Positions 14,282 through 36,494 of a DNA stretch of 64,000 nucleotides are shown one piece after another. Numbering within the stretch: the stretch's first letter is position 1; every line of letters begins with the position of its first letter. The notes beneath the pieces are model-generated. The model was given only the letters and a program-made list of their open reading frames with translations. It did not search any database and was not told where the DNA came from. The stretch is from an uncultured bacterium (GTDB lineage: Bacteria; Desulfobacterota; BSN033; UBA1163), in assembly GCA_938002255.1 (NCBI GenBank), contig CALLAL010000017.1, positions 1-64,000 of the forward strand. The letters are read 5' to 3'. The translations under genes and the position numbers were made by a program.

Positions 14282-15175
14282 ATGCAAGTCAGCGATTTTT
14301 TTGAGCCCTACAAAGGCGATATCAAAGAGGTCACGATAGGAACACCTGGCAAGTCAATTAAGATAGGAGGAGAAAAGACCCTTCCCCTCCATACCTTCGA
14401 GGGACAGGAAGGGGCACCGGTAAGGTTTGCCCTTGAGGTGTTCGATACTCCTCCTGAGGTCTGGCCAGATCATCTTCGTTCTCCTTATGTGGACGTTCTC
14501 TCCGATCCGATTGCCTGGGCCAATAAATGCATTAAGCAGTATGGTGCGGATCTTGTTTCCCTCTTCCTGTCCAGCCTTGATAGTGATAGTGCGGATGTTT
14601 CTAAAATCGCAGAAAATGTGAAGAAGGTGGCGGACCAGATTCCATCCCCTCTGATTGTTATGGGAGTGGGAGATAAGGATAAAGATGCCAAAGCTCTCGT
14701 GGAGATCGCCAAGGTCTGCAGCGGTAAGAATCTTCTCCTTGGACCATTGGTGAAGGAGAACTATGAAGAGATTGCTAAAGCTGCCATGGAAGGAGGACAT
14801 AGTGTTATTCCTCTGACCCCTCTCGATATCAATCTCTGTAAGGAACTGAATGTCAAACTGACCAAATTTTTCCCAAAAGAGAGAATTGTGATTGATCCGA
14901 TGGCTGCGGCTGTCGGTTATGGCATCGACTATTCCTTCTCGATTATGGAACGGGTTAAGCAGGTGGGCGTCATTCATAACGACGAAATGATGAAGATGCC
15001 GATTGTCGCCAACATTGGAAAAGATTGCTGGAAAACAAAAGAGGCAAAGGAAGACAAGAGCCAGGGTATTCTCTGGGAAGCTATGACAGCGTTTATCCTC
15101 ATCCTCGCGGGTGCAAACATAGTGATCATGCGACACCCCGAGAGTTTAAAACTGATTAAAAAATTAATTGCCTGA
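14282..15175 (+). CDS. acsD: Corrinoid iron-sulphur protein small subunit (CODH/ACS delta)
   Basis: 297 residues, close to bacterial AcsD (about 310) and shorter than methanogen CdhD. Segments PLHTFEGQEG, ALEVFDTPPEVWP, GADLVSLFLSSLDSDSAD, LIVMGVGDKDKDA and ERIVIDPMAAAVGYGIDYS are typical of the AcsD/CdhD TIM barrel. With the large subunit (20011-21381) it forms the corrinoid protein that carries the methyl group to the ACS A-cluster. SD AAAGGAGG precedes ATG 14282. It lies after AcsE and before cdhA. Confidence 0.92.
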   Translation: MQVSDFFEPYKGDIKEVTIGTPGKSIKIGGEKTLPLHTFEGQEGAPVRFALEVFDTPPEVWPDHLRSPYVDVLSDPIAWANKCIKQYGADLVSLFLSSLDSDSADVSKIAENVKKVADQIPSPLIVMGVGDKDKDAKALVEIAKVCSGKNLLLGPLVKENYEEIAKAAMEGGHSVIPLTPLDINLCKELNVKLTKFFPKERIVIDPMAAAVGYGIDYSFSIMERVKQVGVIHNDEMMKMPIVANIGKDCWKTKEAKEDKSQGILWEAMTAFILILAGANIVIMRHPESLKLIKKLIA

Positions 15176-15188
15176 AAGGAGTTCACCC

Positions 15189-17486: not shown

Positions 17487-18175
17487 AAATACTCATCCTT
17501 TACCAGGGGGATTACGGGAAAAGGTTCTGGGAAAACATCAGCACCCATGCTCCAGAGGCGTGGGACGTGAAGGGATATCACTATACGAAAAAGATTCCCA
17601 CCTTTGTGGAAGAACTCTCTGATTACCTCCCCCAGAACCTCCCCCCCTGTGATCTACTGCTTTCGGTTCAGGAACATCCTGTCGTGGCTGAAATGATTCC
17701 TCTGTTTATCAAGGAGATGGGTGCACGTGCAGTGATCGCTCCTATCGATAACAAAGCTTACCTGACTTCGGGATTAGCCAGACAGCTGAGAAAGAAACTG
17801 GAGACCATGGGAATCGAGTTTCTCTATCCAATGACCTTCTGCACGCTCTCTGAGAAAATGACTCAGAATGACCTGGTCCTTCAGTTTTTAAACCATTTTG
17901 GAAAACCGAAGGTGGAAATAGAATTTGAAAACGAAAAGGTGAAAGGGGTGAAGGTCCTCAGGGATGCCCCCTGCGGAAACACCCGATATGTAGCAACGCA
18001 CCTGATCGGGACTCATATCAAAGATGCTGTAGAACATTCAGGCATCCTACATCATAACCATCCCTGCATGGCGACCATGACCATGGATGCCGAGATTGGT
18101 GATACATTGATGCATCATGCTGGCCTGCAGGTCAAATTAGCTGTGGAAGAGGCAATTAAAGGGAAAAAACCATAG
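17483..18175 (+). CDS. DUF166 family protein inside the CODH/ACS cluster
   Basis: 230 residues. It begins MKILILYQGDYGKRFWENI and continues with CDLLLSVQEHPVVAEMIP, GARAVIAPIDNK and the C-terminal VLRDAPCGNTRYVATHLIG...HHNHPCMATM, the layout of the DUF166 family, which is best known from methanogens. Two conserved Cys-containing segments (APCGNT and NHPCMAT) and a His-rich run suggest metal or cofactor handling. The start overlaps the cdhA stop (ATGA), implying translational coupling, and cdhB follows. A role in CODH/ACS assembly is an inference from context only. Confidence 0.75.
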   Translation: MKILILYQGDYGKRFWENISTHAPEAWDVKGYHYTKKIPTFVEELSDYLPQNLPPCDLLLSVQEHPVVAEMIPLFIKEMGARAVIAPIDNKAYLTSGLARQLRKKLETMGIEFLYPMTFCTLSEKMTQNDLVLQFLNHFGKPKVEIEFENEKVKGVKVLRDAPCGNTRYVATHLIGTHIKDAVEHSGILHHNHPCMATMTMDAEIGDTLMHHAGLQVKLAVEEAIKGKKP

Positions 18176-18184
18176 AAGAATCCT

Positions 18185-18213
18185 GTAGGGAACAATTTCA
18201 AACTGTTTCCTAC
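18185..18213 (+). other. Intercistronic hairpin upstream of cdhB
   Basis: GTAGGGAACA (18185-18194) pairs with TGTTTCCTAC (18204-18213) with one G-U pair around a 9-base loop. No U-run follows. It lies in the only sizeable gap (61 bases) between the CODH subunit genes and may act on mRNA stability or on relative expression of cdhB and cdhA. Confidence 0.4.
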
Positions 18214-18236
18214 CTGAAAAAAGGGAGGAGAATCTT

Positions 18237-18770
18237 ATGAGCTTACCACTACATTATGTCAACGTTTTAACAGGGTTGAAAGGATGCCGGGTGATTGAAG
18301 ACCCCCAGGCATTGGGAAAGGTCATGAAGAAGGCGGAGAGGCCTCTACTCGTCTTTGGCCCTCGATGCATTGATATTGATCTGGGAGGAAAATTGGCGAT
18401 CGAATACGGCGTCGAAATCGCCAAAACTATGGGGGCGGCGACCTGTGCCACCGCTCATACGAAGAAAAAACTGCTCGAACTTGGCGTGACTCCAGATTCT
18501 ACTTATGATGCGGTAGAAATTATCAATCATCTCAAAGACCCAAACTGGGTGGGAGTCAAGAAACAGGGAAACCATGACCTGGTGATGTTCTTGGGAATGA
18601 GAACAGATTTTGGAAACCAAGGCCTTTCAACGCTGAAACATTACGCACCCCATCTCAAAACCATCACGCTCTGCCCTTATGTTTATCCCCATGCCACGTT
18701 CTCTCTTGCCAATTTGAAAGTAGAGAAATGGAAAGAATACCTCGAAAATCTCATTCAAAGTTTGAAATAA
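18237..18770 (+). CDS. cdhB: CODH/ACS epsilon subunit, archaeal CdhB type
   Basis: 177 residues. RPLLVFGPRCIDIDLGG, ATAHTKKKLLELGV, DLVMFLGMRTDFGNQGLSTLKHY and TLCPYVYPHATFSLANL match the small Rossmann-like epsilon subunit that binds CdhA in methanogen CODH/ACS complexes. The subunit is not part of the classical bacterial AcsAB enzyme, so its presence here supports an archaeal-type complex. SD GGGAGGAG precedes the ATG. Confidence 0.88.
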   Translation: MSLPLHYVNVLTGLKGCRVIEDPQALGKVMKKAERPLLVFGPRCIDIDLGGKLAIEYGVEIAKTMGAATCATAHTKKKLLELGVTPDSTYDAVEIINHLKDPNWVGVKKQGNHDLVMFLGMRTDFGNQGLSTLKHYAPHLKTITLCPYVYPHATFSLANLKVEKWKEYLENLIQSLK

Positions 18771-18785
18771 GAAAGGAGGAAAAAC

Positions 18786-19991
18786 ATGTTTTCAGTTGAT
18801 GTAGGACCCCAGTATGAAGGCGAAACGGTACGAAAGGAAGATTTTCATATTGAGTTCGGAGGGCCAAAACATAAGTTTAAGGCGGAGCTTGTCACCGTAG
18901 TGCCTGCGGACCAGGTGGAAGATGAAAAAGTTGAGGTGATCGGTAAGGACATTAAGGATTTTGAAGAAGGTGCCTCCATCCCCATCTTCATTAAAATAGC
19001 CGTCGCGGGTGAACAGCTTGAAAAAGATATGGAGCCTGTCTTTGAACGTCGGGTCCATATGTATATCAACTATATCGAAGGCTTCTGGCACATGGCCCAG
19101 CGGGATGAGATCTGGATGAGACTCCACAAAGACAGTTTCAAGAAGGGTCTCAATTCCCTCGAGGAGATCGGAAGAATTCTCGTCATGCTTTACAAAAATG
19201 AGCTTTCAATCATTGAAAAAATCCAGATCACCTTTATCACTGACCCGGCTCAGGTTGAAAAAGAGGTCCTCGAAGCTCGAAAAATTTATAAGGAGAGGGA
19301 CGATCGACTCAAAGGGATTACCGAAGAAGAGGTGGATGAGTTTTACGGATGCAGTCTCTGCCAGTCCTTTGCTCCCACCCATGTCTGTGTAATCACACCT
19401 GAGAGAGTCTCCCTATGCGGTGCGATTAACTGGTTTGATGGAAGAGCGGCTTATAAAATAGACCCCGAAGGCCCTCAATTTGCCGTGAAGAAAGGAGACC
19501 TCATCGATCCTGAAAAATTCATCTATTCCGGTGTCAACGAGATGGTTGCAGAAAAATCACTTGGATCAAGCAGCGTCTTCTGTCTCCACAGCGCCCTCGA
19601 AAACCCACACACATCCTGCGGTTGTTTCCAGGCCATCTGCTTTTATATCCCAGAGGTGGATGCCTTTGGTATCGTCCACCGAGATTTTCTCGGTGAAGCG
19701 GTGAATGGCCAGAAATTTTCAGGCATTGCCGGAGAAGCCTCTGGAGGAAGACAGAGTGAAGGGATGCTCGGAATGGCGATCTCTTATATGCGGTCGAAGA
19801 AATTCCTGAAAACCGATGGTGGCTTGAAGCGGGTCGTCTGGTTGCCCAAAACCGTCAAAGAGCAGGTGAAAGATGTTCTTGAAGAAGCAGGATTATATGA
19901 TAAGATTGCAACTGAAGAGGATGTCAAAAATGTAGATGAACTGACGGAATTTCTGAACCGGGTGGGCCATCCCTGGGTCACCGGTGCATAA
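18786..19991 (+). CDS. cdhC: Acetyl-CoA synthase beta subunit, archaeal CdhC type
   Basis: 401 residues, lacking the N-terminal CODH-binding domain of bacterial AcsB (about 730 residues), as in CdhC. A-cluster ligands are visible: C189, C192, C201 and C211 (GCSLCQSFAPTHVC ... LCG) for the 4Fe-4S, and C278-G279-C280 (SCGCF) for the distal nickel. QSEGMLGMAISYMRSKKFL follows. The C-terminus has VWLPKTVKEQVKDVLEE. Joins methyl, CO and CoA to acetyl-CoA. SD GAAAGGAGG precedes the ATG. Twenty bases separate it from the CdhE gene. Confidence 0.93.
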   Translation: MFSVDVGPQYEGETVRKEDFHIEFGGPKHKFKAELVTVVPADQVEDEKVEVIGKDIKDFEEGASIPIFIKIAVAGEQLEKDMEPVFERRVHMYINYIEGFWHMAQRDEIWMRLHKDSFKKGLNSLEEIGRILVMLYKNELSIIEKIQITFITDPAQVEKEVLEARKIYKERDDRLKGITEEEVDEFYGCSLCQSFAPTHVCVITPERVSLCGAINWFDGRAAYKIDPEGPQFAVKKGDLIDPEKFIYSGVNEMVAEKSLGSSSVFCLHSALENPHTSCGCFQAICFYIPEVDAFGIVHRDFLGEAVNGQKFSGIAGEASGGRQSEGMLGMAISYMRSKKFLKTDGGLKRVVWLPKTVKEQVKDVLEEAGLYDKIATEEDVKNVDELTEFLNRVGHPWVTGA

Positions 19992-20010
19992 CCAAAGGAG
20001 GGGGGGTCTC

Positions 20011-21381
20011 ATGGCACTTAAAGCTTCGGACATACAGAAAAAATTACCGGAAGGCGGGAAAAAGAATTGTAAAGAATGTGGCTTTCCAACCTGTTTCGCC
20101 TTTGCAATGAAATTGGCTTCTGGGGCAGTCTCTGTACAGAAATGTACTTATCTACCCGATGAGATAAAGGCTGAACTCGAAGAAGCTTTGGCGCCTCCGA
20201 TTAGACTCGTGACGATAGGGAAAGGAGCGAACAGTTTCAGCACAGGTGAAGAGGAGGTCATCTACCGACACGAAAAAACCTTTTACAGACCCACAGGCGT
20301 TGCCATTTTGATCTCTGAAAAGGAGAGTGAAGAGAGCATTGCCGCTAAAATCAACAAACTGAAGACCATGCAGTTTGACCGGGTGGGTCAAAAGCTTCAA
20401 GCCAATCTCTATGCTTTAAAATATGACGGAAATGGTGAAACGTATCTTAATTTAGTCAAGCGAGTGGCTGGAGAAGGATATCCAATGATCTTAATTTGCG
20501 AGGATCTCGATACTCTGTTCAAGGCAAGGGATCTCGTGGCAGATCAAAACCCACTTCTCTACCCGATCACCAAAGATAACTTAGAGGCTGCTCTTCCGAA
20601 AATCAAAGTCAAACCCACACCCATAGGCATCCGCGCAAATGGGATTGAAGAGATCATCCCCATCACCAAGCGCTTAAAGGAAGAAGGGATTCAGGATGTT
20701 GTCCTCGATCCTTCTCCGAAATCGCTAAAGGAGATGGTCAGGGATTATACCCTCATCCGGAGAGCCGCTCTGAAGAAGACCTTCCGGCCTTTGGGTTATC
20801 CCATTCTATCGCTCCCCTGCTCTCTTGCAGACAATAAAATGGAGGAAGCGCTTTTTGCCTCAGCAGGAGTGATCAAGTATGCCGGAATCGTTGTCCTGTC
20901 CGATTTCGAAAAGGAGACGCTCTATCCTCTCCTAGTCTTAAGACAGAATATTTTTACCGATCCGCGAGTACCTCTTGCCGTGGAGCAAAAGATCTATGAA
21001 ATTGGAGCGGTCACCCCGGACTCCCCGGTTCTGCTGACGACCAACTTTGCCCTGACCTATTTTGCTGTGGCGAGTGAAATCGAAAACAGCAAAGTTCCTT
21101 CCTATCTCTGCGTTAAGGATACGGAAGGTCTGTGTGTGCTTGCAGCCTGGTCAACAGGTAAATTCAGCGGAGATACGGCTGGACCATTTCTCAAGAAGAT
21201 AGGGATTGCAGATAAGGTGAAAAACAAAAGGGTTATCATCCCTGGTTTTGCCGCCAGAATCAAGGGGGAGCTTGAAGAGGAACTTCAGGATTGGGAAGTG
21301 ATCGTTGGTCCTCGCGAAGCGAGCGATCTCCCTGCCTATCTTCCCCAGATGATTGAGAAATGGAAGAGTCAAAACAAATAG
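20011..21381 (+). CDS. acsC: Corrinoid iron-sulphur protein large subunit (CODH/ACS gamma)
   Basis: 456 residues, AcsC/CdhE. The N-terminal 4Fe-4S motif NCKECGFPTCFAFAMKLASG...KC (C-x2-C-x4-C-x15ish-C, residues about 20-45) is diagnostic and is followed by a TIM barrel and C-terminal B12-binding domain (IIPGFAARIKGELEEEL, VIVGPREASDLPAYL). ATG 20011 is chosen because AAAGGAGGGGGG lies just upstream. With AcsD it carries the Co-methyl group. The last 22 bases overlap the next gene. Confidence 0.92.
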   Translation: MALKASDIQKKLPEGGKKNCKECGFPTCFAFAMKLASGAVSVQKCTYLPDEIKAELEEALAPPIRLVTIGKGANSFSTGEEEVIYRHEKTFYRPTGVAILISEKESEESIAAKINKLKTMQFDRVGQKLQANLYALKYDGNGETYLNLVKRVAGEGYPMILICEDLDTLFKARDLVADQNPLLYPITKDNLEAALPKIKVKPTPIGIRANGIEEIIPITKRLKEEGIQDVVLDPSPKSLKEMVRDYTLIRRAALKKTFRPLGYPILSLPCSLADNKMEEALFASAGVIKYAGIVVLSDFEKETLYPLLVLRQNIFTDPRVPLAVEQKIYEIGAVTPDSPVLLTTNFALTYFAVASEIENSKVPSYLCVKDTEGLCVLAAWSTGKFSGDTAGPFLKKIGIADKVKNKRVIIPGFAARIKGELEEELQDWEVIVGPREASDLPAYLPQMIEKWKSQNK

Positions 21382-24957: not shown

Positions 24958-24990
24958 AGATAGATATCATAAAAAAGTGAGGGAGTGCTT

Positions 24991-25908
24991 ATGAAATCAG
25001 GAAGCCGTCTTGAAAGGGTGCTTGAGGCTGGACACTTTGCATTCACGGGGGAACTGGGCCCTCCGCAGGGAGCCAATGTGGAACACGTTAGAAAAAAGGC
25101 CGGTTACCTGAAAGGGATTGTCGATGCCGTCAATATTACCGACAATCAAACTGCCGTCGTTCGTATGTCGAGTTGGGGGGCTGGGTTAATTGCTCTCCAG
25201 GAAGGGTTGGAACCCAATTACCAGATGGTCTGCCGGGACCGCAACCGCATTGCCATGCAAAGTGACATCCTCGGTGCTTATGCCCACGGCATTCGAAATA
25301 TGCTCTGCCTTTCAGGAGATCATATGCAATTTGGAAACCATCCCCTGACGAAGGGCGTTTTTGACATCGACTCAATTCAACTCATCGCGATGGTCAAGAA
25401 AATGCGTGATGAGAAGAAATTTCTCAATGGAGATGAGATCGATGGGGCTCCGCAGATCTTCATCGGTGCTGCAGAAAATCCTTTCGCTGAACCTTTCGAG
25501 TGGCGAGTCCATCGCCTGGCCAAAAAAGTAGAGGCAGGAGCAGATTTTATTCAAACCCAGTGCATTTATGACATGAAACTGTTCCGTGAATGGATTAGAC
25601 AGGCCAATGATATAGGACTGACCGAAAAGGTCCATATCCTCGCAGGGATCACCCCTCTTAAATCTGGAGGTATGGCTCGATATATGGCAAAAAACGTCTC
25701 CGGAATCATTATTCCCGATGAAATCATCGATCGGATCGTCCAAGCCAAAAAACCGGCTGAAGAAGGGATTAAATTCTGTGTGGAACAGATTGAAGAACTC
25801 AAGGAAATGAAAGGAGTTCACGGGATACACCTCATGGCCATTGAGTGGGAACATCGAGTGCCAGAGATCGCTGAACGGGCAAAACTTCTACCCAGACCCG
25901 AAGTCTAA
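24991..25908 (+). CDS. metF: Methylenetetrahydrofolate reductase, MetF (paralogue 1)
   Basis: About 305 residues, TIM-barrel FAD protein. FTGELGPPQG carries the active-site Glu; LSGDHMQFGNHP the conserved Asp; and FIQTQCIYD keeps the Gln that in E. coli MetF binds folate. SGGMARYMAKNVSGIIIPDEII is the C-terminal signature. It has no C-terminal Cys domain; that is supplied by metV further downstream. ATG 24991 is used (GTG 24985 is in frame). The catalysed step is methylene-THF to methyl-THF. It lies between the NuoG-like/unknown genes and the NarI-like gene. Confidence 0.92.
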   Translation: MKSGSRLERVLEAGHFAFTGELGPPQGANVEHVRKKAGYLKGIVDAVNITDNQTAVVRMSSWGAGLIALQEGLEPNYQMVCRDRNRIAMQSDILGAYAHGIRNMLCLSGDHMQFGNHPLTKGVFDIDSIQLIAMVKKMRDEKKFLNGDEIDGAPQIFIGAAENPFAEPFEWRVHRLAKKVEAGADFIQTQCIYDMKLFREWIRQANDIGLTEKVHILAGITPLKSGGMARYMAKNVSGIIIPDEIIDRIVQAKKPAEEGIKFCVEQIEELKEMKGVHGIHLMAIEWEHRVPEIAERAKLLPRPEV

Positions 25909-25974
25909 CGTGATTCCATAACGAAATGCTTTGTTAAAGATGAAAGTGGTTTTTAGTAAGATAAGGAGAAGCGT

Positions 25975-26646
25975 ATGTTAGATTTTATTCAAGGTCCGTT
26001 GGTATCGATTTCTATTGTCGTCTTTATCCTCGGCCTTCTCTTTCAAGTATTTCAATTCTTTCGATTGACCCGCAAAAAAGAATGGGGAAATCCTCCTCTC
26101 CCTCAACCCATGAAGCCCGAGAAAAAAACGATAGGGCAACAGATAGCCTCCTGGCTCTCTGCTTTAAATGGCACGCTCTGGAAAACTGACCCCGTTTTAA
26201 CCGTAGTCACGTCTGTCTTCCATATTCTATTGATCATCACGCCGCTGTTCCTTCTTGGGCACAACACTCTGATCCGTCTATCTTGCGGATGGAGCCTGTT
26301 CAGCCTCCCAGAGTCACTTTCAGATGGGTTAACCTTGATCGTTTTGATCTGCGGAGCCTATTTCCTTGGACGCCGTCTCTTTCTCGCCCGAGTGAAAGCC
26401 ATTACTACGGCTTACGACTATATCATGTTATTGATCGCGATCGCTCCTTTTTTAACAGGTTTTTTCGCCTATCATCAGTGGTTTGACTATGAAACCGTGA
26501 TCTTGCTTCACATCTTAACCGGTGAACTCATGCTTATCTCCATCCCCTTCACCAAGCTCGGGCACATGCTCTTTTTCTTCCTCTATCGTTTCTTCATCGG
26601 TGGAGAGTACAGTTTTCTGAGGGGATCGCGATCATGGTCATGGTAA
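25975..26646 (+). CDS. NarI/HdrE/TmcC-like cytochrome b membrane subunit
   Basis: 223 residues with about five hydrophobic segments (residues 5-30, 80-100, 110-130, 145-165, 175-210). Histidines in membrane segments (VFHILLIITPLFLLGHN; YHQWF; LLHILTGELMLISIPFTKLGHMLFF) are spaced for haem b ligation as in NarI, DsrM, HdrE and TmcC. The C-terminus ends in a short basic/aromatic tail. The next two genes encode an HdrC-like protein and a tetrahaem cytochrome c, as in membrane redox complexes of sulphate reducers. Its presence between metF and metV is unusual. Confidence 0.8.
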   Translation: MLDFIQGPLVSISIVVFILGLLFQVFQFFRLTRKKEWGNPPLPQPMKPEKKTIGQQIASWLSALNGTLWKTDPVLTVVTSVFHILLIITPLFLLGHNTLIRLSCGWSLFSLPESLSDGLTLIVLICGAYFLGRRLFLARVKAITTAYDYIMLLIAIAPFLTGFFAYHQWFDYETVILLHILTGELMLISIPFTKLGHMLFFFLYRFFIGGEYSFLRGSRSWSW

Positions 26647-26662
26647 GGAGGTAAAAAAAACA

Positions 26663-27076
26663 ATGGACCCATCCTTCTCAACCCAAACGATCCAGAAGGT
26701 CGATACGAAAAAGGTGAAAGAAATGCTTAACCGCCGCAAAGGAAAAATGAAGCGTTTTCTTTCCCATTGTGCTCACTGTAGCCTCTGTGCCGAAAGCTGT
26801 TTTCTTTATATGAAACATCGAAAAGATCCTCACTATATGCCCTCTTACAAAGTGATCAACTCTTTGGGGAAACTCTACCGAAAGAGAGGAAAGGTGGACT
26901 GGAAATTTCTAAATGAGATCAAGGGAATTGTCTGGAGAAACTGCGTGCTCTGTGGCCGGTGTTATTGTCCGATCGGAATTCATGTCCCAAGCATGATCGC
27001 TTTCACGCGGAGCATTTTGAGGTCACAAGGTGTCTATCCTCAGCGTAATGAAATTTCTGCAGAGAGCTGGCTATAA
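26663..27076 (+). CDS. HdrC-like ferredoxin-type iron-sulphur protein
   Basis: 137 residues. Two cysteine clusters: CAHCSLCAESC (C-x2-C-x2-C-x3-C) and CVLCGRCYCPIGIHVPSM (C-x2-C-x2-C-x1-C-P), with the PSM/PG after the second resembling the HdrC tail. The last spacing is shorter by two than the usual C-x3-CP, so it is slightly atypical. No CCG domain for HdrB/D catalysis is present. SD GTAAGGAGG precedes the ATG. It would pass electrons between the cytochrome b subunit and a soluble partner such as MetV or MetF. Confidence 0.78.
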   Translation: MDPSFSTQTIQKVDTKKVKEMLNRRKGKMKRFLSHCAHCSLCAESCFLYMKHRKDPHYMPSYKVINSLGKLYRKRGKVDWKFLNEIKGIVWRNCVLCGRCYCPIGIHVPSMIAFTRSILRSQGVYPQRNEISAESWL

Positions 27077-27103
27077 GGTTCCATGCCTATCACGGGAGGT
27101 AAA

Positions 27104-27511
27104 ATGAAGAGGCTAAAAGGATTTTGGTGTGGATTGATCATGATCATCCTTCTCTTAGCAGCAGGCCCTCCTCTCGGAGCCCAGTCTGAGAAGATGATCC
27201 TGGATTCATCTAAAGGCCAATTAGGGAAAAAGCGACCCCCTGTCAATTTTCCACACCAGCTCCATATGGAGAAGGGCCTGGATTGCAAGGATTGTCATCA
27301 TCTTTATGAGAATGGGAAAAATGTCCTTGACGAAAGCAAACTGATAGAGGGGAACCAGGAGATTCGGTGCTCCACCTGCCATCATGCCAAATCTCGACTC
27401 AACCTTGAAAAGGCTTATCATAGACAATGCATGGGTTGCCACAAAAAGCCTTTAAAGGACCAAACAAGGGTTCCTCCCCGATATTGTGGAGGATGTCATG
27501 TACGAAATTGA
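27104..27511 (+). CDS. Periplasmic tetrahaem cytochrome c (class III-like)
   Basis: 135 residues: signal peptide MKRLKGFWCGLIMIILLLAA...GA/Q (about 1-28), then four CxxCH motifs (CKDCH, CSTCH, CMGCH, CGGCH), with additional His (FPHQLHMEKGLDC) as distal ligands. This is the cytochrome c3/c7 pattern. ATG 27104 has SD GGGAGG; an in-frame ATG at 27083 is less likely. It sits after NarI-like and HdrC-like genes, so it is the probable periplasmic partner of that module. Confidence 0.88.
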   Translation: MKRLKGFWCGLIMIILLLAAGPPLGAQSEKMILDSSKGQLGKKRPPVNFPHQLHMEKGLDCKDCHHLYENGKNVLDESKLIEGNQEIRCSTCHHAKSRLNLEKAYHRQCMGCHKKPLKDQTRVPPRYCGGCHVRN

Positions 27512-27622
27512 TGGACCGGATCCTAATGGTTTTCCCCATTTTTATCTAACCCCGTTGGAATCAAAATTTAGACGAAAACGGATATGAAAATCATTTAATG
27601 TGCTGCACAATGGAGGCAAATC

Positions 27623-28297
27623 ATGATCGTAGCAGAAAGAAAACCTTTAGATGAGATCAAAGAGATGATCAAGGGTTACCGGAAGATACTCAATGTGGGA
27701 TGCGGGGGATGCACCTCCATCTGTTTTACAGGCGGCCAGCGTGAGGTGAACCAACTTATTGAAAGCCTAAAACCCGCTTTACAAGAGGAGGGGATCGCCC
27801 TCCAGCTAGACGGATTTACCATCGAACGTCAATGCAATGGTGATTTTTATCTCGAACTGGATGAGATCATGGACCAGTACGATGCATTCCTCTCCATGGC
27901 TTGTGGCGCAGGGGTCCAGTTCCTGGCAGATCGATATCCCCAAAAACCTGTTTTCCCTGCATTAAATACCATTTTCGTTGGGGTGGATCGGGATCTGGGA
28001 TGGTTTGAGGAAAACTGCCGGACCTGCCGTGAATGCATCATCGGCGATACAGCAGGCATCTGCCCCTTGACGAGGTGCGCCAAAAGCCTCTTTAATGGTC
28101 CATGTGGAGGGACATCCCGCGACGGAAAGTGCGAGGTCAGTAAAGATACCCCCTGCGCCTGGTATGAAATTTTTAAAAGGCTAAAAGACCAAAACCGAAT
28201 TGAAAACATCCTCAAGGTCAGACCTGCACGGGAGTGGCGTAACCAGACGCGGGGGACCATGGTTCACGAGGACTATCAAAAAAGATATATGAGATGA
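27623..28297 (+). CDS. metV: MetV-like MTHFR-associated iron-sulphur protein
   Basis: 224 residues of the MTHFR C-terminal (MetV) family. N-terminal part: VGCGGCTSICFTGG, with three Cys, then an alpha/beta domain ending in PVFPALNTIFVG. C-terminal Cys-rich domain: CRTCRECIIGDTAGICPLTRC followed by LFNGPCGGTSRDGKCEV. In acetogens MetV pairs with MetF for methylene-THF reduction. It is separated from metF by the three electron-transfer genes and is followed by a second metF after its own promoter. Confidence 0.88.
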   Translation: MIVAERKPLDEIKEMIKGYRKILNVGCGGCTSICFTGGQREVNQLIESLKPALQEEGIALQLDGFTIERQCNGDFYLELDEIMDQYDAFLSMACGAGVQFLADRYPQKPVFPALNTIFVGVDRDLGWFEENCRTCRECIIGDTAGICPLTRCAKSLFNGPCGGTSRDGKCEVSKDTPCAWYEIFKRLKDQNRIENILKVRPAREWRNQTRGTMVHEDYQKRYMR

Positions 28298-28358
28298 GAG
28301 CGGGGGTCTTCTCCTCCCTAATAGGGTAACCCATGTCAACTCGAAAGTCATCAAGGGA

Positions 28359-28386
28359 TTGACATTTTCTCTCGACATTATATAAT
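28359..28386 (+). promoter_or_regulatory. Strong sigma-70 promoter for metF paralogue 2
   Basis: TTGACA (28359-28364), 16-base spacer, TATAAT (28381-28386): both boxes are perfect consensus. The start would be near 28393, about 75 bases before the next metF. It probably also drives the histidine kinase and receiver genes that follow. Confidence 0.75.
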
Positions 28387-28467
28387 GTGGCGACTTTTCT
28401 CTCCTTAGCCGTCGTTAGAATTTGAATAAGTTTCTTTACATCAGTTTTTTCTCAGAGGAGAAGACCC

Positions 28468-29340
28468 ATGACCTTTCAAGAACGTTTGGACTCAGGAAAA
28501 TTCACGGTTGTTGCTGAGCTTCAGCCCCCCAAAGGAATTGACCTTTCCGAGCTTTTTGAACATGCGAACCAGCTGAAAGAGCGTGTTGACGCTATCAGTG
28601 TACCGGACCTTCAAAACGCCATCATGAGATTGGGATCCCTGTCAGTATGTGCTCTTTTGAAACAAAAGGGGACCGAGGTCATCTATCATCTCTCCTGTAT
28701 TCACCGAAACCGACTGGCCCTTCAATCCGAACTTCTCAATGCCGCCGCTCTTGGTTTAAAGAATATTTTGATCCTTCCAGGGGACCCTCCCTCGATTGGG
28801 GATCATTATGAAGCCCCCCCCGTCTTGGACCTCGATGTCTCTGGGTTGCTTGAAGCTGCCCAACGTCTTCAGGAAGGGTTTGATCTCATGGGCAATGATC
28901 TCCAGGGAAAACCTCTCTTTTTTGTAGGAACCCAGATCCAAGCGGGAGCAACTGGCCAAACCCTTGATCAGGAAATCAGGGAAATGGAGAAAAAAATTCG
29001 TCTGGGAGCTAAATTCTTTTTCACGTCGTCCATATATGATCCAAACCCTTTCGAAGACTTTATCAAGAAAGTGGCCCATTACAATGTACCCATTCTGGCA
29101 GGAATTACCTTGCTAAAGTCGGCAGGGATGGCCCGTTATATTAATAAACATGTGGAAGGAGCCGCCATTCCGGATGCGATCATCGACCGACTCATCAAAG
29201 CCTCTGACAAACAGCAAACCAGTGTTGAAATCGCCGGGGAGATCATCAGGAAGATCAAACCCCTTTGTCAAGGCATTTTAATCGTGCCCATCGGTTGGGA
29301 GCATTTGATCCCTTCTTTGCTTGAACAAGCGAACCTCTGA
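28468..29340 (+). CDS. MetF-like TIM-barrel protein (paralogue 2), altered folate-binding Gln
   Basis: 290 residues, clearly MetF-like (VVAELQPPKG with the Glu; LPGDPPSIGDHYE with the Asp; SAGMARYINKHVEG, the C-terminal signature), but the position equivalent to the folate-binding Gln reads FFFTSSIYD (Ser). It lacks a C-terminal Cys domain. Good SD (GAGGAGAAG) precedes the ATG. It may accept a different C1 carrier or serve as a regulatory or structural partner; it is the first gene after a strong promoter and is followed by signal-transduction genes. Confidence 0.85.
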   Translation: MTFQERLDSGKFTVVAELQPPKGIDLSELFEHANQLKERVDAISVPDLQNAIMRLGSLSVCALLKQKGTEVIYHLSCIHRNRLALQSELLNAAALGLKNILILPGDPPSIGDHYEAPPVLDLDVSGLLEAAQRLQEGFDLMGNDLQGKPLFFVGTQIQAGATGQTLDQEIREMEKKIRLGAKFFFTSSIYDPNPFEDFIKKVAHYNVPILAGITLLKSAGMARYINKHVEGAAIPDAIIDRLIKASDKQQTSVEIAGEIIRKIKPLCQGILIVPIGWEHLIPSLLEQANL

Positions 29341-29396: not shown

Positions 29397-31328
29397 ATGA
29401 TGGCCAGAAAACTCTCTCCATTGCCTAAAAAGCGAAAAAAGACAACCGGACGCTTAACCCTTGTCACAAAAAGGGTTGATTCCGAAATGTTCGAAGCCAT
29501 TGCAGAACTGGGAAATGATGGCATTCTGGTGTTCGATCAGCATCATCGAATAGAGTATGCTAATCGAATGGCTTCGGAGATCACGGGCTATTCGAATGAA
29601 CAATTGTTGAAAATGACCATTCTCGATCTTCTTGACAAACCTCATCAATCCTTTATTGAAGACCTCTTCATCCATCCGGAGTGGTACGGGGAAAAAACCT
29701 GTACAGAGGCTTATGTGATTACCGCTGAGGGAGAGTTAAAAGAAGCTGAAATCTGCATTGCCCTCGCCAGATCGTCCCATGAAATGATGAAAGGTTATGC
29801 CTATCTCAAAGACATCACGGAGCGAAAGAGATTTGAAAGGGAGTTGAAGGCTTCCGAAGAGAAACTTCGGAGGCTTTTTGAGAGGGTCCGACACGGCCTG
29901 TTTATCAGCTCAAAGGAAGGGAGGTTCCTCGAATGTAACCAGGCTCTCCTTGACATGTTAGGCTATGATGACAAAAAAGACTTCCTCAGAATTGACATTA
30001 CCCGTGAAGTCTATGCCAACCCCAAAGACAGGGAAACGTTCATGGAGAGAATCCAAAGGGAAGGTTTTGTTCAAGATATGGAGGTAGATTTTAAGAAGAA
30101 GAGTGGGGAAAAAATCACGGTTCTCCTCACAGGCTATCCCATTAAAAATGACTCCGGAGACATTGTCGGTTATGAAGGGATCAACCTCGATATTACCGAA
30201 AGAAAAAGGATCGAAGATGAACTTCGGGAAGCAAACGAATTCTTTAGAAACTTAATCGAGAGCTCTGTGGATGGAATCATTGCGGCAGACATGACAGGCA
30301 ACATCATGATCTTTAACAAGGGGGCAGAAGTGTTAACCGGATTCACCGCAGAGGAGGTGATCGGAAAGATTCATATTACTCAGATCTATCCACCAGGTGT
30401 AGCCAAGGAGGTTATGAAACGACTTCGGAGTCCAGATTACGGGGGAGTTGGCAAACTCCTTCCCACTCAGTTCAACGTGGTCAACAAGTGGGGGGAAGAG
30501 ATTCCTATCCAGCTCTCTGCCTCCCTCATCTATGACCAGAAAGGGCAGGAGATGGCCACGGTGGGGATCTTCACCGATCTCAGGCCCCGTGTAGCAATGG
30601 AAAAGAAACTCCAGGAGACGCATCTCCAGTTGGTGAATTCAGAGAAGATGGCTTCTTTAGGAAAGCTGGCGGCTGGCATTGCTCATGAGATTAATAACCC
30701 TTTGGGAGGGATTCTCATCTATGCCAGCCTGATGATGGAAGATCTCCCTGAAGATGATCCGAAGCGAGCCGATCTGGCTCGGATTGTTCAGGAAGCGGGT
30801 CGGTGTAAAGAGATTGTCAAGAGTTTGCTCGAATTTGCCCGGCAAACAGAACCCAAAAAAGAACCGACGGATATCAATCGTGCCATCCAAGATGGTCTCT
30901 TCTTCCTGGTCAACCAGGCCCTCTTCCACAACATCCGAATCGTTAAGGAACTGGATCCTTCCTTACCTCTGGTTCATGGCAACGCAAGCCAGCTCAAACA
31001 GGTCTTCATGAATATCATCGTCAATGCCGCAGAAGCCATGCATGGCAATGGGACCCTTACCATTAAGACGTCCTTCTCTTCAGACGAAAACAAGGTCACG
31101 ATTGAATTTACAGACACCGGGGAAGGTATCCCCGAAGAAAACCTCTCCCGAATCTTTGATCCTTTCTTTACCACCAAGGATGTTGGAAAGGGAACAGGTC
31201 TGGGATTAGCCACCTCTTTCGGAATCATCGAAGAGCACGGAGGAAGAATTAATGTGAAGAGTAAAGTGGGTGAGGGCGCAACGTTTTCGATCGAACTCCC
31301 TGTCCACCTCGAAACGAGTAGGGGATAA
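29397..31328 (+). CDS. Sensor histidine kinase with three PAS domains
   Basis: 643 residues, soluble (no membrane segment). PAS domains at about 25-145 (FEAIAELGNDGILVF), 150-275 (RLFERVRHGLFIS), and 285-405 (LIESSVDGIIAADMTG); HisKA with the His in AAGIAHEINNPLGG; HATPase with NAAEAMHGN (N box), DTGEGIPEE, FFTTK and GTGLGLAT. Cytoplasmic sensing, perhaps of redox or a ligand, is inferred from its architecture. The next gene is a lone receiver protein. It lies between MetF paralogues, which suggests control of C1 metabolism. Confidence 0.9.
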   Translation: MMARKLSPLPKKRKKTTGRLTLVTKRVDSEMFEAIAELGNDGILVFDQHHRIEYANRMASEITGYSNEQLLKMTILDLLDKPHQSFIEDLFIHPEWYGEKTCTEAYVITAEGELKEAEICIALARSSHEMMKGYAYLKDITERKRFERELKASEEKLRRLFERVRHGLFISSKEGRFLECNQALLDMLGYDDKKDFLRIDITREVYANPKDRETFMERIQREGFVQDMEVDFKKKSGEKITVLLTGYPIKNDSGDIVGYEGINLDITERKRIEDELREANEFFRNLIESSVDGIIAADMTGNIMIFNKGAEVLTGFTAEEVIGKIHITQIYPPGVAKEVMKRLRSPDYGGVGKLLPTQFNVVNKWGEEIPIQLSASLIYDQKGQEMATVGIFTDLRPRVAMEKKLQETHLQLVNSEKMASLGKLAAGIAHEINNPLGGILIYASLMMEDLPEDDPKRADLARIVQEAGRCKEIVKSLLEFARQTEPKKEPTDINRAIQDGLFFLVNQALFHNIRIVKELDPSLPLVHGNASQLKQVFMNIIVNAAEAMHGNGTLTIKTSFSSDENKVTIEFTDTGEGIPEENLSRIFDPFFTTKDVGKGTGLGLATSFGIIEEHGGRINVKSKVGEGATFSIELPVHLETSRG

Positions 31329-31375: not shown

Positions 31376-31759
31376 ATGGCGAAGAAAATTTTGATCGTCG
31401 ATGATGATCCAGACTTGGTAGAAGCAGTGACCATGATTCTGGAATCAAAAAATTACGATGTGGCAGCCGCTTATGGCGGCATTGAGGGATTGCAAAAGGC
31501 AAAAACAGAAAATCCTGATTTGATCGTCTTGGATGTGATGATGCCGGATAAGGATGGCTATGCCGTCTGTAAGGAATTAAAGGCAGATCCTCAATTGAAC
31601 AGAATCCCTGTTCTCCTTTTAACCGCCGTGGTCTCAAAGATTCCCACAACTCGATACACTCAACAGATGGGAATGGAAACAGAAGCAGACGATTATATCG
31701 ACAAACCCGTAGAGCCTGAAGTCCTGGTGAAAAGGATTGAAGCCCTGCTTTCCAAATAA
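31376..31759 (+). CDS. Single-domain response regulator
   Basis: 127 residues, a CheY/DivK-like receiver only. VDDDPD (acidic pocket), LIVLDVMMPDKDG (phosphoacceptor Asp), LLTAVV (Thr) and DKPVEPEVL (Lys) are all present, so it should be phosphorylated. No output domain. SD AGAAGGAGG precedes the ATG. It follows the kinase by 47 bases and probably carries phosphate between kinases, or acts by protein binding. Confidence 0.88.
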   Translation: MAKKILIVDDDPDLVEAVTMILESKNYDVAAAYGGIEGLQKAKTENPDLIVLDVMMPDKDGYAVCKELKADPQLNRIPVLLLTAVVSKIPTTRYTQQMGMETEADDYIDKPVEPEVLVKRIEALLSK

Positions 31760-31858
31760 TTACGGCAGAGGGCAAAGAACTTAGAGTTTAGGGGAATGGC
31801 TAAATGACTTTGTCCAGAACCCTCTGCTCCATGCCCTATGCGGTTTATTGAGGATGGT

Positions 31859-33358
31859 ATGCTTGATCCAGTCAATATACTGGTCATTGATGATGAACAG
31901 ATCATGAGGGATGGCGCTTCCCGCATTCTCTCCAAGGATGGTTGGGGAGTCATGACGGCAACCAATGGTCAGCAGGGGTTGGAAGTCATTCGGAATCGCA
32001 CTCAGGAGATCGATGTGATCCTTCTGGATCTGATGATGCCAGGGATGAGCGGAATGGAGGTTCTCGATCACATTCAGGCGATCAATCCAAACCTTCTGGT
32101 CATCGTCATCACCGGTTATGCCACGGTTGAATCTGCGGTGGAAGCCATGAAGAAGGGGGCTTATGACTTTATTCCAAAGCCCTTTACGCCTGACCAGCTC
32201 CGAATCGTGGTTCGCCGGGCTCTTGAAAAACGGGCACTCCAGAAAGAAGCAGAATTTTTGCGACGAGAGCGCGAGAGGTCACTCCGCGATATTGCCACAG
32301 AAAAATCGAAGATCAAAACGATTATTCATTGTATGGGGGACGGTGTTTTGGTTTGTGACTCGGAGGGTTATGTCGTTCTTACCAATCCGGCAGCCTGCCG
32401 GATGTTGAAATTACCAGAATCCTGCCTGATTGGAAACCTCATCTCTCAGGTCAATCTCGATCCGGAGTTGTCCAAAACCATTGAAGAAAGTTTGAAATCG
32501 GTAGGCCTGAGTTATACCTCTGTGTCTCAGGAGCTAACCATCGGAGAATCGGGAGAAATCTTTTTAAGGGCCCACACCGCACCCGTGAAAGATGATCAGG
32601 GAGAAACCATCGGAGCGGTCACAGTTCTTCAGGATATTAGCCATCTGAAAGAACTGGACAAGATGAAATCTGAATTTATTGCCATGGTGACCCACGAACT
32701 TCGAGCCCCTATTTCTGCGGTAGAACAACAGTTGTCTGTGATCTTAAATCGCATGGCAGGAGAGATCTCGGAGAAACAGGAAAAACTCCTTCTTCGGGCA
32801 AAGGAGAGAACCAAGGGACTTTTAGCTTTGATCAAAGACCTGCTCGATCTCTCAAAGATTGAAGCCGGAAGGATGGTCCAGTATAAAGAACCGATCTCCC
32901 TTCAGGAAGTGATTCAAAAAGTAATGGATTTAATGAAGGCGGAAGCCGATCACAAAAAGATTGATCTTCAATTCCCCACTCCTTCTCAAGATCCGATCGT
33001 TCATGCGGACCGGACCAGCATGGAGGGAATCTTTACCAATCTCATTTCAAATGCCATTAAATATACCCCAGAAGGAGGAAGGGTCTTGGTGACGCTTACC
33101 GAAGAAGGAGGATTTGCGAAAGCCACGGTTTCTGACACGGGCATCGGAATTAAAAAAGAAGATCTCCCTCGAATTTTTGACAAGTTTTACCGAGTGAAAT
33201 CGACTGAGACCCGTCAGATTGTCGGAACAGGTCTCGGACTTTCCATCGTTAAGAGTATTGTGGATGCCCATCTTGGCTCAATCTCGGTCGAAAGCGAAGA
33301 AGGGGGGGGAACAACGTTCACCGTTATCCTTCCTAAAGGAGTGGATCAGAGCTCATGA
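31859..33358 (+). CDS. Hybrid receiver-PAS-histidine kinase
   Basis: About 499 residues. N-terminal receiver (VIDDEQ; VILLDLMMPGMSG; FIPKPFTPDQL), a PAS domain (about 145-250, HCMGDGVLVCDSEG), HisKA with the His in AMVTHELRAPISAVE, and HATPase (NLISNAIKYTPEGG, DTGIGIKKED, GTGLGLSIVK). ATG 31859 is chosen because GAGGA precedes it; ATG 31838 would begin within a degenerate CATGC-type repeat. It is third in the signalling block. No output DNA-binding domain is found, so the target is probably another receiver. Confidence 0.85.
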   Translation: MLDPVNILVIDDEQIMRDGASRILSKDGWGVMTATNGQQGLEVIRNRTQEIDVILLDLMMPGMSGMEVLDHIQAINPNLLVIVITGYATVESAVEAMKKGAYDFIPKPFTPDQLRIVVRRALEKRALQKEAEFLRRERERSLRDIATEKSKIKTIIHCMGDGVLVCDSEGYVVLTNPAACRMLKLPESCLIGNLISQVNLDPELSKTIEESLKSVGLSYTSVSQELTIGESGEIFLRAHTAPVKDDQGETIGAVTVLQDISHLKELDKMKSEFIAMVTHELRAPISAVEQQLSVILNRMAGEISEKQEKLLLRAKERTKGLLALIKDLLDLSKIEAGRMVQYKEPISLQEVIQKVMDLMKAEADHKKIDLQFPTPSQDPIVHADRTSMEGIFTNLISNAIKYTPEGGRVLVTLTEEGGFAKATVSDTGIGIKKEDLPRIFDKFYRVKSTETRQIVGTGLGLSIVKSIVDAHLGSISVESEEGGGTTFTVILPKGVDQSS

Positions 33359-33386: not shown

Positions 33387-35393
33387 CTATTGATTTTCTT
33401 GGCTCTCTTTTGTCTTCTTTCCCTTCTTTTCCGGTGGCGGTTTTATCCCCAGTCGTTTTGCCGTATGATCTCTTCCCATATAGAAATTGAGCCATGAAGA
33501 GGTTTGCCACAGCTCCCAATCGCAAGGAGGAACAATATATTCTCCCAAACTATTTTCCTCCTGATAGGCTTTGAGCCGATCGTAGGCTTGCACCCAGACA
33601 CATTTCTGCTTATTCGGATAAACCTCACACCAGCCCTGATAACTTCCTCCACAAGCTCCATTACGCTGGTTTTTCGGACATTGAGACATCGGACAGACAA
33701 AAGCGACATCAAAGAGGGCACAATCCCCACAATTCAAACAGTGAAAGAGCGCTGTCTTAGCCATGTGCTCAAAAAATTCCAAAACACTCTTGGCTCGAGG
33801 GGATCTGTCAACCCACTTCGCAAGAGGTCTCAGGATCTTAAAAACTCGACTTTTCTCTTCAAAAAGGGTCACATGAGCTACCCGTGAGAGTCTATAGACA
33901 AAAGGCACCGTGGGTTTAGAGGTTCTTTGAGCCCATACCTCTGTGTTTAAACCCGTTTTTGGGTCTTTCTCAAAGAGATAAAATCCATTAGGCTGGGGAT
34001 AATCGAATTCAGGGATCCATTTCTCCCAATCCTTGGATAGTTCTTCACCCTTGGTGATAATATATTCTACCATGTCAGAGGAAATCCCATGCCCTCCGAT
34101 ATGGGCTCCTGCATAGCCCATCCCCTTTGCGATGGCATACAACTTGGCTGCCCGGAGAAGCCTCGCTTCTTTCCCTTTGTCAGGAGCCTTTGCCTCTTCT
34201 GCCAATTCAGCCACCAACTTGTCTGTAACGACGCATCCTGGAATCTTATTGGCATTCATCATCTTGGCAGTGGGGTATGGTAGGACATAGACGTTCACCA
34301 AAACGGGAATATGATAATGGTTAAGTCTCAACCACTGGATCAACTCATGATACTTTCTGGCGTCATATCCAATCTGGGTAATAATAAATTTTGCTCCTGC
34401 CTCAATCTTCTTTTTGAGCTTATAGTATTGAGCCATGAGTTCTGATTCCAACTGTTTGAAAGGAGAAACACAGACCCCGACAAATAAGTCCGTTGGGGCG
34501 AGAACGACTTTTTTCCCCATGGAATGATGCTCCAAGCCTTTATTCATCGCCTCGATTAATCGAACCACATTGACCGGGTCCAGATCAAAAACCGGTTTAG
34601 GTTTGCCCTCAAATCCTTCGGAAGAGGGGTAATCCCCCGTTAGGGCGAGGATGTTTCTCACGCCACTGGCCGCTAATCCATAAAGCATACTCTCGATCTG
34701 GCTTCGGTTTTTATCTCGGCAGGCAAGGTGTACCAGAGGCTCGGTCCCGACCCGTTTCACTTCAGCACATAACATCTCCGTTGAGATCGCAGGGTTTCCT
34801 CCGGGATTATCCGTTACGCTAATGGCATGAATCTTTCCAAGTTCAGCTGCCTTACGGATATTGTCAAATACGTGTTCCTGTTGTATTTCAAAAGCCCCTC
34901 TTCCGGGGATCTGTTCCCAGGTCACACAGAAAACGTTGGGGTTAAGAATAGCCTCCTTGAGTGGATTTGCCTTCTCCCCAAGGCGGGTGTCAATTTTTTC
35001 AATTAATCCCAGAGATTTGACGGATTCAGCAATCGACGCCATATCGTCAGGAGAAATCATCAGATATTCTTCGGCGTCCATCTGCATGGCTTCCTGACTG
35101 GTCCATGCCTTCTGGGGCTGGCCTGGGAAATGGGCATCCACGATCAGTTGTGGAATGTGTTTGGTGATCCATCCCTCTCTCAATTTTTTGTGAAGTCTAA
35201 ATGAACTTCCACGGGGTTCAAGATACCCTAAGAGAATAATATCAGGTCGTTCTCCTCTGGCTTTGTTTAGTCCCTCGTTTTCACTCGAAGCACTGGTCAC
35301 CTCAAATTGACCCTCAAGGGATTTCCCGATCAGGTCATGAAATTCTGGAATGCTTCCTATGACAAGGACTTTACGCTTTTTCGAATTCTCCAT
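33387..35393 (-). CDS. Fusion: receiver-like domain + MetF + MetV C-terminal domain
   Basis: 668 residues. Residues 7-130: response-regulator-like fold (KVLVIGSIPEFHDLIGKSL, DIILLGYLEPRG), but the phosphoacceptor Asp is Gly56 and the acidic pocket is lost, so it is probably not phosphorylated. Residues about 155-450: MetF (VTWEQIPGRGAF with active-site Glu; LTGDYPS; FIITQIGYD with the Gln retained). Residues about 540-640: MTHFR_C Cys-rich domain (CLNCGDCALFDVAFVCP; QRNGACGGSYQGWCEV). A bifunctional MetF/MetV enzyme with a non-canonical regulatory domain is the natural reading. It converges with the hybrid kinase gene. Confidence 0.88.
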   Translation of the reverse strand: MENSKKRKVLVIGSIPEFHDLIGKSLEGQFEVTSASSENEGLNKARGERPDIILLGYLEPRGSSFRLHKKLREGWITKHIPQLIVDAHFPGQPQKAWTSQEAMQMDAEEYLMISPDDMASIAESVKSLGLIEKIDTRLGEKANPLKEAILNPNVFCVTWEQIPGRGAFEIQQEHVFDNIRKAAELGKIHAISVTDNPGGNPAISTEMLCAEVKRVGTEPLVHLACRDKNRSQIESMLYGLAASGVRNILALTGDYPSSEGFEGKPKPVFDLDPVNVVRLIEAMNKGLEHHSMGKKVVLAPTDLFVGVCVSPFKQLESELMAQYYKLKKKIEAGAKFIITQIGYDARKYHELIQWLRLNHYHIPVLVNVYVLPYPTAKMMNANKIPGCVVTDKLVAELAEEAKAPDKGKEARLLRAAKLYAIAKGMGYAGAHIGGHGISSDMVEYIITKGEELSKDWEKWIPEFDYPQPNGFYLFEKDPKTGLNTEVWAQRTSKPTVPFVYRLSRVAHVTLFEEKSRVFKILRPLAKWVDRSPRAKSVLEFFEHMAKTALFHCLNCGDCALFDVAFVCPMSQCPKNQRNGACGGSYQGWCEVYPNKQKCVWVQAYDRLKAYQEENSLGEYIVPPCDWELWQTSSWLNFYMGRDHTAKRLGIKPPPEKKGKKTKESQENQ

Positions 35394-35618: not shown

Positions 35619-36494
35619 TTAGAGGGATTCAGCAATCGCTTCCAGATATGGACGAAGCCTATCGATGGATCCTACCGGAATGATATGGATTCCCTGGCAA
35701 ACCTCTTTAAGCCCTTTGATGAGGTTCCGAATGATCTCAATACTGGTGGCATCTTTATCCTGTGCTTTGGCTAATTTCTCGATAATGTGATTGGGCACCA
35801 GTCCAGGCCGAACATACTTATTGAGAAAGAGCCCCATACTCGCTGATCTGACCAGAATGACTTCTGCAATGACTGGAATTTGGATGGAGCCAACACGACT
35901 CATAAATTGGTGGAAAGAATCAAGGTCAAAGACAGGTGTGGTAAGAAAGTAATGAGTCCCAAGACCCGCCAGAGTTTCCATCTCTTTTAATTCCATATCT
36001 GGAACTTTCTTCCCCCAACTTGAATCGACCCCTGAACCGATACAAAACTGAGGCCTGAAACCAATCTCTTTGCCGGAGATGTCGTGTCCTTCCCGGAGGC
36101 TATTGATGACGGAATAAAGCTTTCCTGTGTCCACATGAAAATACATGATCTCCTGAAGGCTATCTCCAGTGATTCGATAATCTTGAGTAAAAGTGAGGAT
36201 ATTACTGATCCCGGATTCAGCCGCTCTTAGCAGTTGCTTCTGAATCTCCACTCTGTTTTTCTCCCTGCAGGAAGTTTGAAAAATAGGTTCAAATTCCTGC
36301 GCCTTCAAAATGCGGCAGGTCTCCATGGTGTCGGTTACCAATCCTTCGATATTTAAATCAGGAACAGTAAGGGCATCGATTTTGCCCCTTATGCTGTTGA
36401 CTCCCCGAATCAGATCATCCGCATCGGTTTCAATTGCCGGTTGAATTTCAGAGGTAACCACAAATCGCTTTCCAAGACACTCATCCAATTTCAT
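35619..36494 (-). CDS. MetF-like protein (paralogue 4), altered Gln
   Basis: 291 residues of the MTHFR fold: VVTSEIQPAIETD (Glu), TFTQDYRITGD (Asp), SASMGLFLNKYVRPGLVP. The folate-binding Gln position is in YFLTTPVFD (Thr) and the glycine-rich 'GD' motif is altered, so substrate may differ. SD GGGAGGAGA precedes the ATG. Transcribed divergently from the DUF296 gene with its own promoter (36586-36614). A hairpin ACCGAT/ATCGGT overlaps the stop (35603-35619). Confidence 0.82.
   Translation of the reverse strand: MKLDECLGKRFVVTSEIQPAIETDADDLIRGVNSIRGKIDALTVPDLNIEGLVTDTMETCRILKAQEFEPIFQTSCREKNRVEIQKQLLRAAESGISNILTFTQDYRITGDSLQEIMYFHVDTGKLYSVINSLREGHDISGKEIGFRPQFCIGSGVDSSWGKKVPDMELKEMETLAGLGTHYFLTTPVFDLDSFHQFMSRVGSIQIPVIAEVILVRSASMGLFLNKYVRPGLVPNHIIEKLAKAQDKDATSIEIIRNLIKGLKEVCQGIHIIPVGSIDRLRPYLEAIAESL

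Follow-up and report, generated by a model that had tools for sequence, protein, structure and literature searches.

Conserved fusion of a pseudo-receiver domain to a MetF–MetV-type MTHFR in an uncultured bacterium of the Desulfobacterota

The window analysed here, 64,000 nucleotides of contig CALLAL010000017.1, contains a Wood–Ljungdahl locus consisting of fhs, folD, cooC, acsE, CODH/ACS genes and NuoEFG-like genes, followed by methyl-branch genes; gene names outside the Pfam matches are the author's reading of the sequences. The locus includes a gene whose product, P0001, appears to carry a signalling domain on a one-carbon enzyme, next to histidine kinases and receivers. The questions raised by this gene are whether its receiver domain is genuine and, if so, what such a domain could do on an MTHFR. 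The original prediction described a receiver fold, a complete MetF barrel and a MetV cysteine domain joined in one chain, and the open reading frame, the Pfam matches and structural comparison bear this out. The features of the protein are as follows.

33387–35393, minus strand: fused protein P0001 (pseudo-receiver, MetF barrel and MTHFR_C), an ORF of 668 aa with the stop included in the coordinates
35013–35375, minus strand: pseudo-receiver domain, residues 7–127 (profile matches to PDB response regulators, AF2 models, structural matches)
35226–35228, minus strand: codon of Gly56 at the phospho-Asp site (alignment, Gly in 24 of 24)
34086–34943, minus strand: MetF/MTHFR barrel, residues 151–436, with the fold reaching about residue 454 (Pfam PF02219, Z 26 to Thermus MTHFR, catalytic residues)
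33777–34085, minus strand: middle segment, residues 437–539, less conserved (mean pairwise identity 0.65)
33513–33776, minus strand: MetV-type C-terminal cysteine domain (DUF5981), residues 540–627 (Pfam PF12225, E 5e-28, eight invariant Cys)

The ORF opens with ATG and encodes a single continuous polypeptide. An artefact of start-codon choice or frameshift is ruled out, as the fusion lies in one frame in all 24 full-length orthologues (P0001 and 23 others). These belong to 16 genomes of the host's phylum and eight genomes of a second group, and the architecture is therefore not due to chance. Of 395 sampled genomes of the phylum, 92 contain a strong match; among these matches are 13 full-length fused proteins (families f1, f2, f3, f10 and f44) and two further fused copies cut by contig ends. 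Most of the other strong matches lack the receiver and are roughly 37–58% identical over the MetF–MTHFR_C part. More fused copies occur in near relatives, some in records titled ‘Deltaproteobacteria bacterium’. The second group is centred on an ‘Acidobacteria bacterium’ MAG, whose copy is 51% identical to that of the window; the other seven are 62–95% identical to the MAG copy. A tree built on residues 150–650 places every fused protein in a single clade (99/94) within the receiver-less ones, which rules out independent fusions in the two groups. On this phylogeny, the receiver–MTHFR fusion arose once and was followed by descent or by transfer into the second group. The architecture of P0001 is real and conserved; its regulatory reading is an interesting possibility.

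The enzyme part is readily recognised. The MTHFR family (PF02219) matches residues 154–406 with E 8e-24 (84.9 bits against a cut-off of 24), and the barrel is complete, residues 142–454 being superimposable on Thermus MTHFR with Z 26. The equivalents of E. coli MetF Glu28, Asp120 and Gln183 are kept in fused and receiver-less proteins alike. The ‘MTHFR C terminal’ domain DUF5981 scores 97 bits against a cut-off of 23, and its cysteines C552, C555, C558, C567, C572, C581, C589 and C598 are invariant in 38 sequences. Since the catalytic residues and the eight cysteines are kept, P0001 is probably an active single-chain iron–sulfur flavoprotein MTHFR. Acetogen MetV carries FeS, and MetVF enzymes accept electrons from reduced ferredoxin in vitro (PMC8760232).

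The N-terminal domain scores poorly in family searches. Its Response_reg match in Pfam covers residues 10–111 with E 0.21, and the curated PF00072 cut-off of 30.2 bits is missed by both the whole protein (12.2 bits) and the domain alone (16.1 bits); NCBIfam yields weak PhoB and PleD matches for residues 7–132. A PDB search with a profile of 17 orthologous N-termini returned 51 distinct sequences at E ≤ 0.01 (best 1e-9), and the named matches are response regulators, receivers and FrzS constructs, plus one de novo protein. AlphaFold models, with a mean pLDDT of 84 for full-length P0001 and 78 for the receiver domain alone, have a strict alternation of strands and helices in a (beta-alpha)5 fold. 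Structural comparison (VIA) of model residues 5–142 with the RpaA receiver gave Z 16.7 over 120 residues, and a Foldseek search with the domain alone found the RpaA, PhoB and DivK receivers (best E 9e-8). These profile and structural matches show that the receiver fold is no artefact of alignment; the N-terminal domain of P0001 is a genuine receiver by homology, though under the Pfam cut-off. With such a score, the fused architecture is likely hidden from domain tables. A degenerate B12-binding domain, prompted by an ‘HDLIG’ stretch, was ruled out, as the profile matches are response regulators and the His is not conserved.

Each of the five phosphotransfer residues has been substituted in this domain. 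The predicted substitution of the phospho-Asp by Gly56 was confirmed in the alignment, where Gly occupies the position in 24 of 24 orthologues. The metal-binding acidic pair has given way to Gly-Ser, or in the second group mostly to Ser-Gln or a like pair; Asp or Glu stands in place of the Thr in the first group, and Ser in place of the Lys. Judged by its residues, Asp phosphorylation of the P0001 receiver domain is excluded. For residues 7–127, dN/dS is 0.03–0.09 in 12 of 14 pairs; the remaining two pairs, with values of 0.20 and 0.18, are very close (dS 0.04 and 0.23, respectively). By these ratios the domain is kept under purifying selection and is not decaying. Receiver homology, the missing key residues and selection together make it a pseudo-receiver in the sense of PMC12632262. 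Positions E40, G56 and W75 are conserved in the alignment, and the C-terminal half of the domain is strongly divergent in the second group.

The surroundings of the fused gene in the window comprise the following features.

24985–29340, plus strand: methyl-branch genes MetF1, NarI-like cytochrome b, HdrC-like, cytochrome c3, MetV and MetF2 (Pfam; conserved near the fused gene in other families)
29397–31328, plus strand: PAS-histidine kinase (Pfam; linked in most complete loci)
31376–31759, plus strand: intact single-domain receiver, candidate partner (Pfam; closest REC in the genome to the pseudo-receiver)
31838–33358, plus strand: REC-PAS-histidine kinase converging on the fused gene (Pfam; linked in most complete loci)
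35619–36494, minus strand: MetF-like paralogue, the fourth MetF-like gene, immediately upstream of the fused gene and without the Gln183 equivalent

The host genome has 73 REC domains, so one of them lying nearby is weak evidence of a connection unless the arrangement is conserved. Within the phylum, the kinase/receiver neighbourhood of the fused gene is maintained between families with as little as about 64% identity between their fused proteins. The adjacency of kinases and receivers noted in the original prediction is correct. In ten loci of the phylum, an intact single-domain receiver, a REC-PAS kinase and a PAS kinase are encoded no more than about 4 kb from the fused gene; most contig-limited phylum loci contain parts of this set. 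Flanking ORFs were named by similarity to window genes, and small genes may be missed. In families f2, f3, f10 and f44 the order on one strand is MetF-like gene, receiver, fused gene and AroE-like gene, with the kinases converging, and the partner REC precedes the fused gene by 0.2–0.8 kb. Many loci also link the fused gene to genes for MetF1, cytochrome b, HdrC, cytochrome c3 and MetV.

In the neighbouring receivers the phosphotransfer site is complete, with acidic pair, Asp, Thr and Lys. In a tblastn search of the host genome, the receiver at 31376 was the best REC match to the pseudo-receiver (35 vs. 19 bits), and it also came first in a profile search of a sample drawn from the 73 receiver domains (50 vs. 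29.5 bits). A tree joins the neighbouring REC with the fused group with moderate support (87/63), the short domain resolving poorly and the second group lying on a long branch inside the fused group, where branch order was ignored. A derivation of the pseudo-receiver from the neighbouring REC is only suggested by these comparisons.

Several genomes depart from this arrangement. No linked partner REC was found beside the eight second-group orthologues, and a hybrid kinase adjoins one of them. In genome G007 the signalling genes lie on another contig, whose end comes about 1 kb after the hybrid kinase. The fused gene of G007 has a transposase gene beside it, and the separation of the two parts may reflect an insertion plus an assembly break. 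Genome G004 has the fused protein, and a search of this genome found no close partner REC (best 46%). In genome G008 (97% complete) the fused protein was not found, while the receiver (91%), both kinases and the methyl-branch genes are kept, so the ties of the signalling genes are to MTHFR loci at large and not only to the fused protein. Between the PAS kinase and the receiver of G008 (L171, 974–16400) lie putative HdrC, HdrB, two HdrA-like proteins, an MvhD-like stretch, MetV and MetF, a cluster that reads as a type IV-like MetVF–HdrABC–MvhD arrangement. CdhC is present in 12 of the 13 full-length holders of the phylum sample and in just one of the eight second-group genomes; a strict tie of the fused protein to acetyl-CoA synthase is not upheld by this count, and its role is not strictly linked to that enzyme.

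Other features of these loci can be noted. In f2, f3, f10 and f44 the gene after the fused one is shikimate-dehydrogenase-like (L074, 4895–5710; L075, 11638–12453; L077, 12139–12981; L078, 6323–7189; L081, 8958–9818); the window's locus has none. Paralogues of MetF in which the Glu28 equivalent is retained and Gln183 is replaced by Ser, Thr, Pro or Asn are encoded at 28468–29340 and 35619–36494 of the window and in other loci (L074, 1290–2165; L077, 7920–8789; L081, 4896–5762); in other families, Gln183 is missing from the MetF-like gene that precedes the partner REC. The neighbours of these paralogues are MTHFR and receiver genes, and their role may be regulatory or structural instead of catalytic. 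The row of MetF1, NarI-like cytochrome b, HdrC-like, cytochrome c3 and MetV genes at 24985–28297 recurs in other families and looks like an electron path of MTHFR that is membrane- or cytochrome-linked and falls outside acetogen types I–IV. The CODH/ACS subunits at 14282–21381 resemble the five-subunit archaeal type by size and order; in the relative G009 a bacterial-type ACS set is encoded as well, close to MetF3 (L073, 1–6653). On contig C8 of the host genome (L176, 4922–13391), an HTH-REC protein is immediately followed by a MetF-like gene, a large HdrA-like protein, MetV and MetF; this is another receiver adjoining an MTHFR locus in the genome.

The best explanation as a whole, held at a little under an even chance, is an MTHFR with a docking pseudo-receiver tied to the neighbouring receiver. 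Electrons would enter via Fe–S centres on the eight cysteines and pass to the flavin of the barrel, with methylene-THF and methyl-THF being interconverted in the Wood–Ljungdahl methyl branch. Less surely, the pseudo-receiver would serve as a docking module, the likeliest partner of which in the host's phylum would be the intact single-domain receiver at 31376. This receiver would be phosphorylated by the two adjacent PAS kinases, and through its pairing with the pseudo-receiver the activity of the reductase, or the assembly of a complex, would be coupled to the sensed signal, the enzyme itself staying unphosphorylated. Heterodimers of a pseudo-receiver with a receiver have been proposed as a mechanism (PMC12632262).

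The main rival assigns the pseudo-receiver a structural or electron-partner docking role with no part in signalling, as in oligomerisation or in contacts with ferredoxin, the MetF paralogues or the HdrC/cytochrome module, and it is a real possibility, if hardly a probable one. It would account for the retention of the domain in the second group, which has no linked kinases, and it fits both the cytochrome, HdrC and MetV genes linked in many loci and the closest known REC–enzyme fusions, which are metabolic decarboxylases with a receiver-like wing (PMC8503589). It leaves unexplained, however, the association with an intact REC and two kinases that is preserved in five families, and the nearest-relative signal to the neighbouring REC. 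Binding of a small ligand (for example, nucleotide, flavin or folate), with the pseudo-receiver acting as an allosteric sensor domain of the enzyme, is less likely than the docking roles and on the whole improbable. A c-di-GMP-binding pseudo-receiver is known in the kinase ShkA (PMC7010744), and the conserved E40, G56 and W75 look unusual for receivers; no ligand motif, however, was found in the pseudo-receiver, and the second group departs strongly from the other orthologues in the C-terminal half of the domain. That the receiver is a vestige or an annotation accident on an ordinary reductase is very improbable: the sub-threshold Pfam score and the receiver-less paralogues, which manage without the domain, would suit it, but purifying selection, one origin, retention in 24 of 24 full-length members and a clear fold speak against it, and dN/dS rules out a vestigial receiver.

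The docking of the pseudo-receiver with the neighbouring receiver leads to a more specific and more doubtful proposal, that of two-component control of a Wood–Ljungdahl one-carbon enzyme after translation, in which the kinases would act through the single-domain receiver on the built-in pseudo-receiver to set MTHFR activity or electron access. The single origin, selection on the receiver, the invariant Gly56, the linked REC and kinases and the nearest-relative REC count for signalling; the unlinked second group, G008 and G004 count against it. The prediction that sensing controls the C1 reductase by contact and not by phosphorylation stands in part: Asp phosphorylation is excluded and the linkage is conserved in the phylum, but the second group, one hybrid kinase apart, is unlinked and G008 is unfused. 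Control by protein contact is a plausible candidate mechanism.

Among known systems, P0001 is similar to the MetVF-type MTHFRs of acetogens (types II–IV, PMC8760232), which combine a MetF barrel with a MetV cysteine domain in the Wood–Ljungdahl methyl branch, and electron transfer from FeS to flavin is probable in both. P0001, however, is one chain instead of two subunits (MetV and MetF), the N-terminal half of MetV is not recognisable in it and an N-terminal pseudo-receiver is added. MetVF types III and IV have RnfC2 or HdrABC/MvhD, whereas no HdrA or MvhD homologue was found in the window and no RnfC2-like ORF was recognised beside P0001. The receiver-less single-chain MetF–MTHFR_C proteins of the same phylum (about 500–550 aa) share the barrel, the cysteine domain and the catalytic residues, and differ in the absence of the receiver, the fused clade being nested among them. 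A receiver-like N-terminal domain of about 150 aa on a metabolic enzyme is also present in extended (‘winged’) AAT-fold Arg/Lys/Orn decarboxylases, the ancestral form of which lacks it; these enzymes are unrelated to MTHFR, and linked kinases are not mentioned for them in the available part of the source (PMC8503589). The pseudo-receivers and aspartate-less receivers (PMC12632262, PMC4395418) likewise combine the (beta-alpha)5 fold with loss of the phosphotransfer residues. Aspartate-less receivers act mainly through DNA-binding or signalling domains, and their recorded enzymatic outputs include pyruvate phosphate dikinase and HDOD (PMC4395418); MTHFR is not mentioned in this 2015 survey.

Within openly licensed papers, no relevant report of an MTHFR with a receiver or two-component fusion was found. 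The MetF and cysteine-domain part alone is not new, being common without the receiver. The REC–MTHFR fusion is thus undescribed in the literature searched, while REC–enzyme fusions and pseudo-receivers were already known.

The fused protein is a candidate entry point to protein-level control of flux through the Wood–Ljungdahl methyl branch and to the electron donors of MetV-type MTHFRs. The mechanism of bacterial pseudo-receivers has been described as a mystery (PMC12632262), and P0001 is a natural pseudo-receiver whose output is an assayable enzyme.
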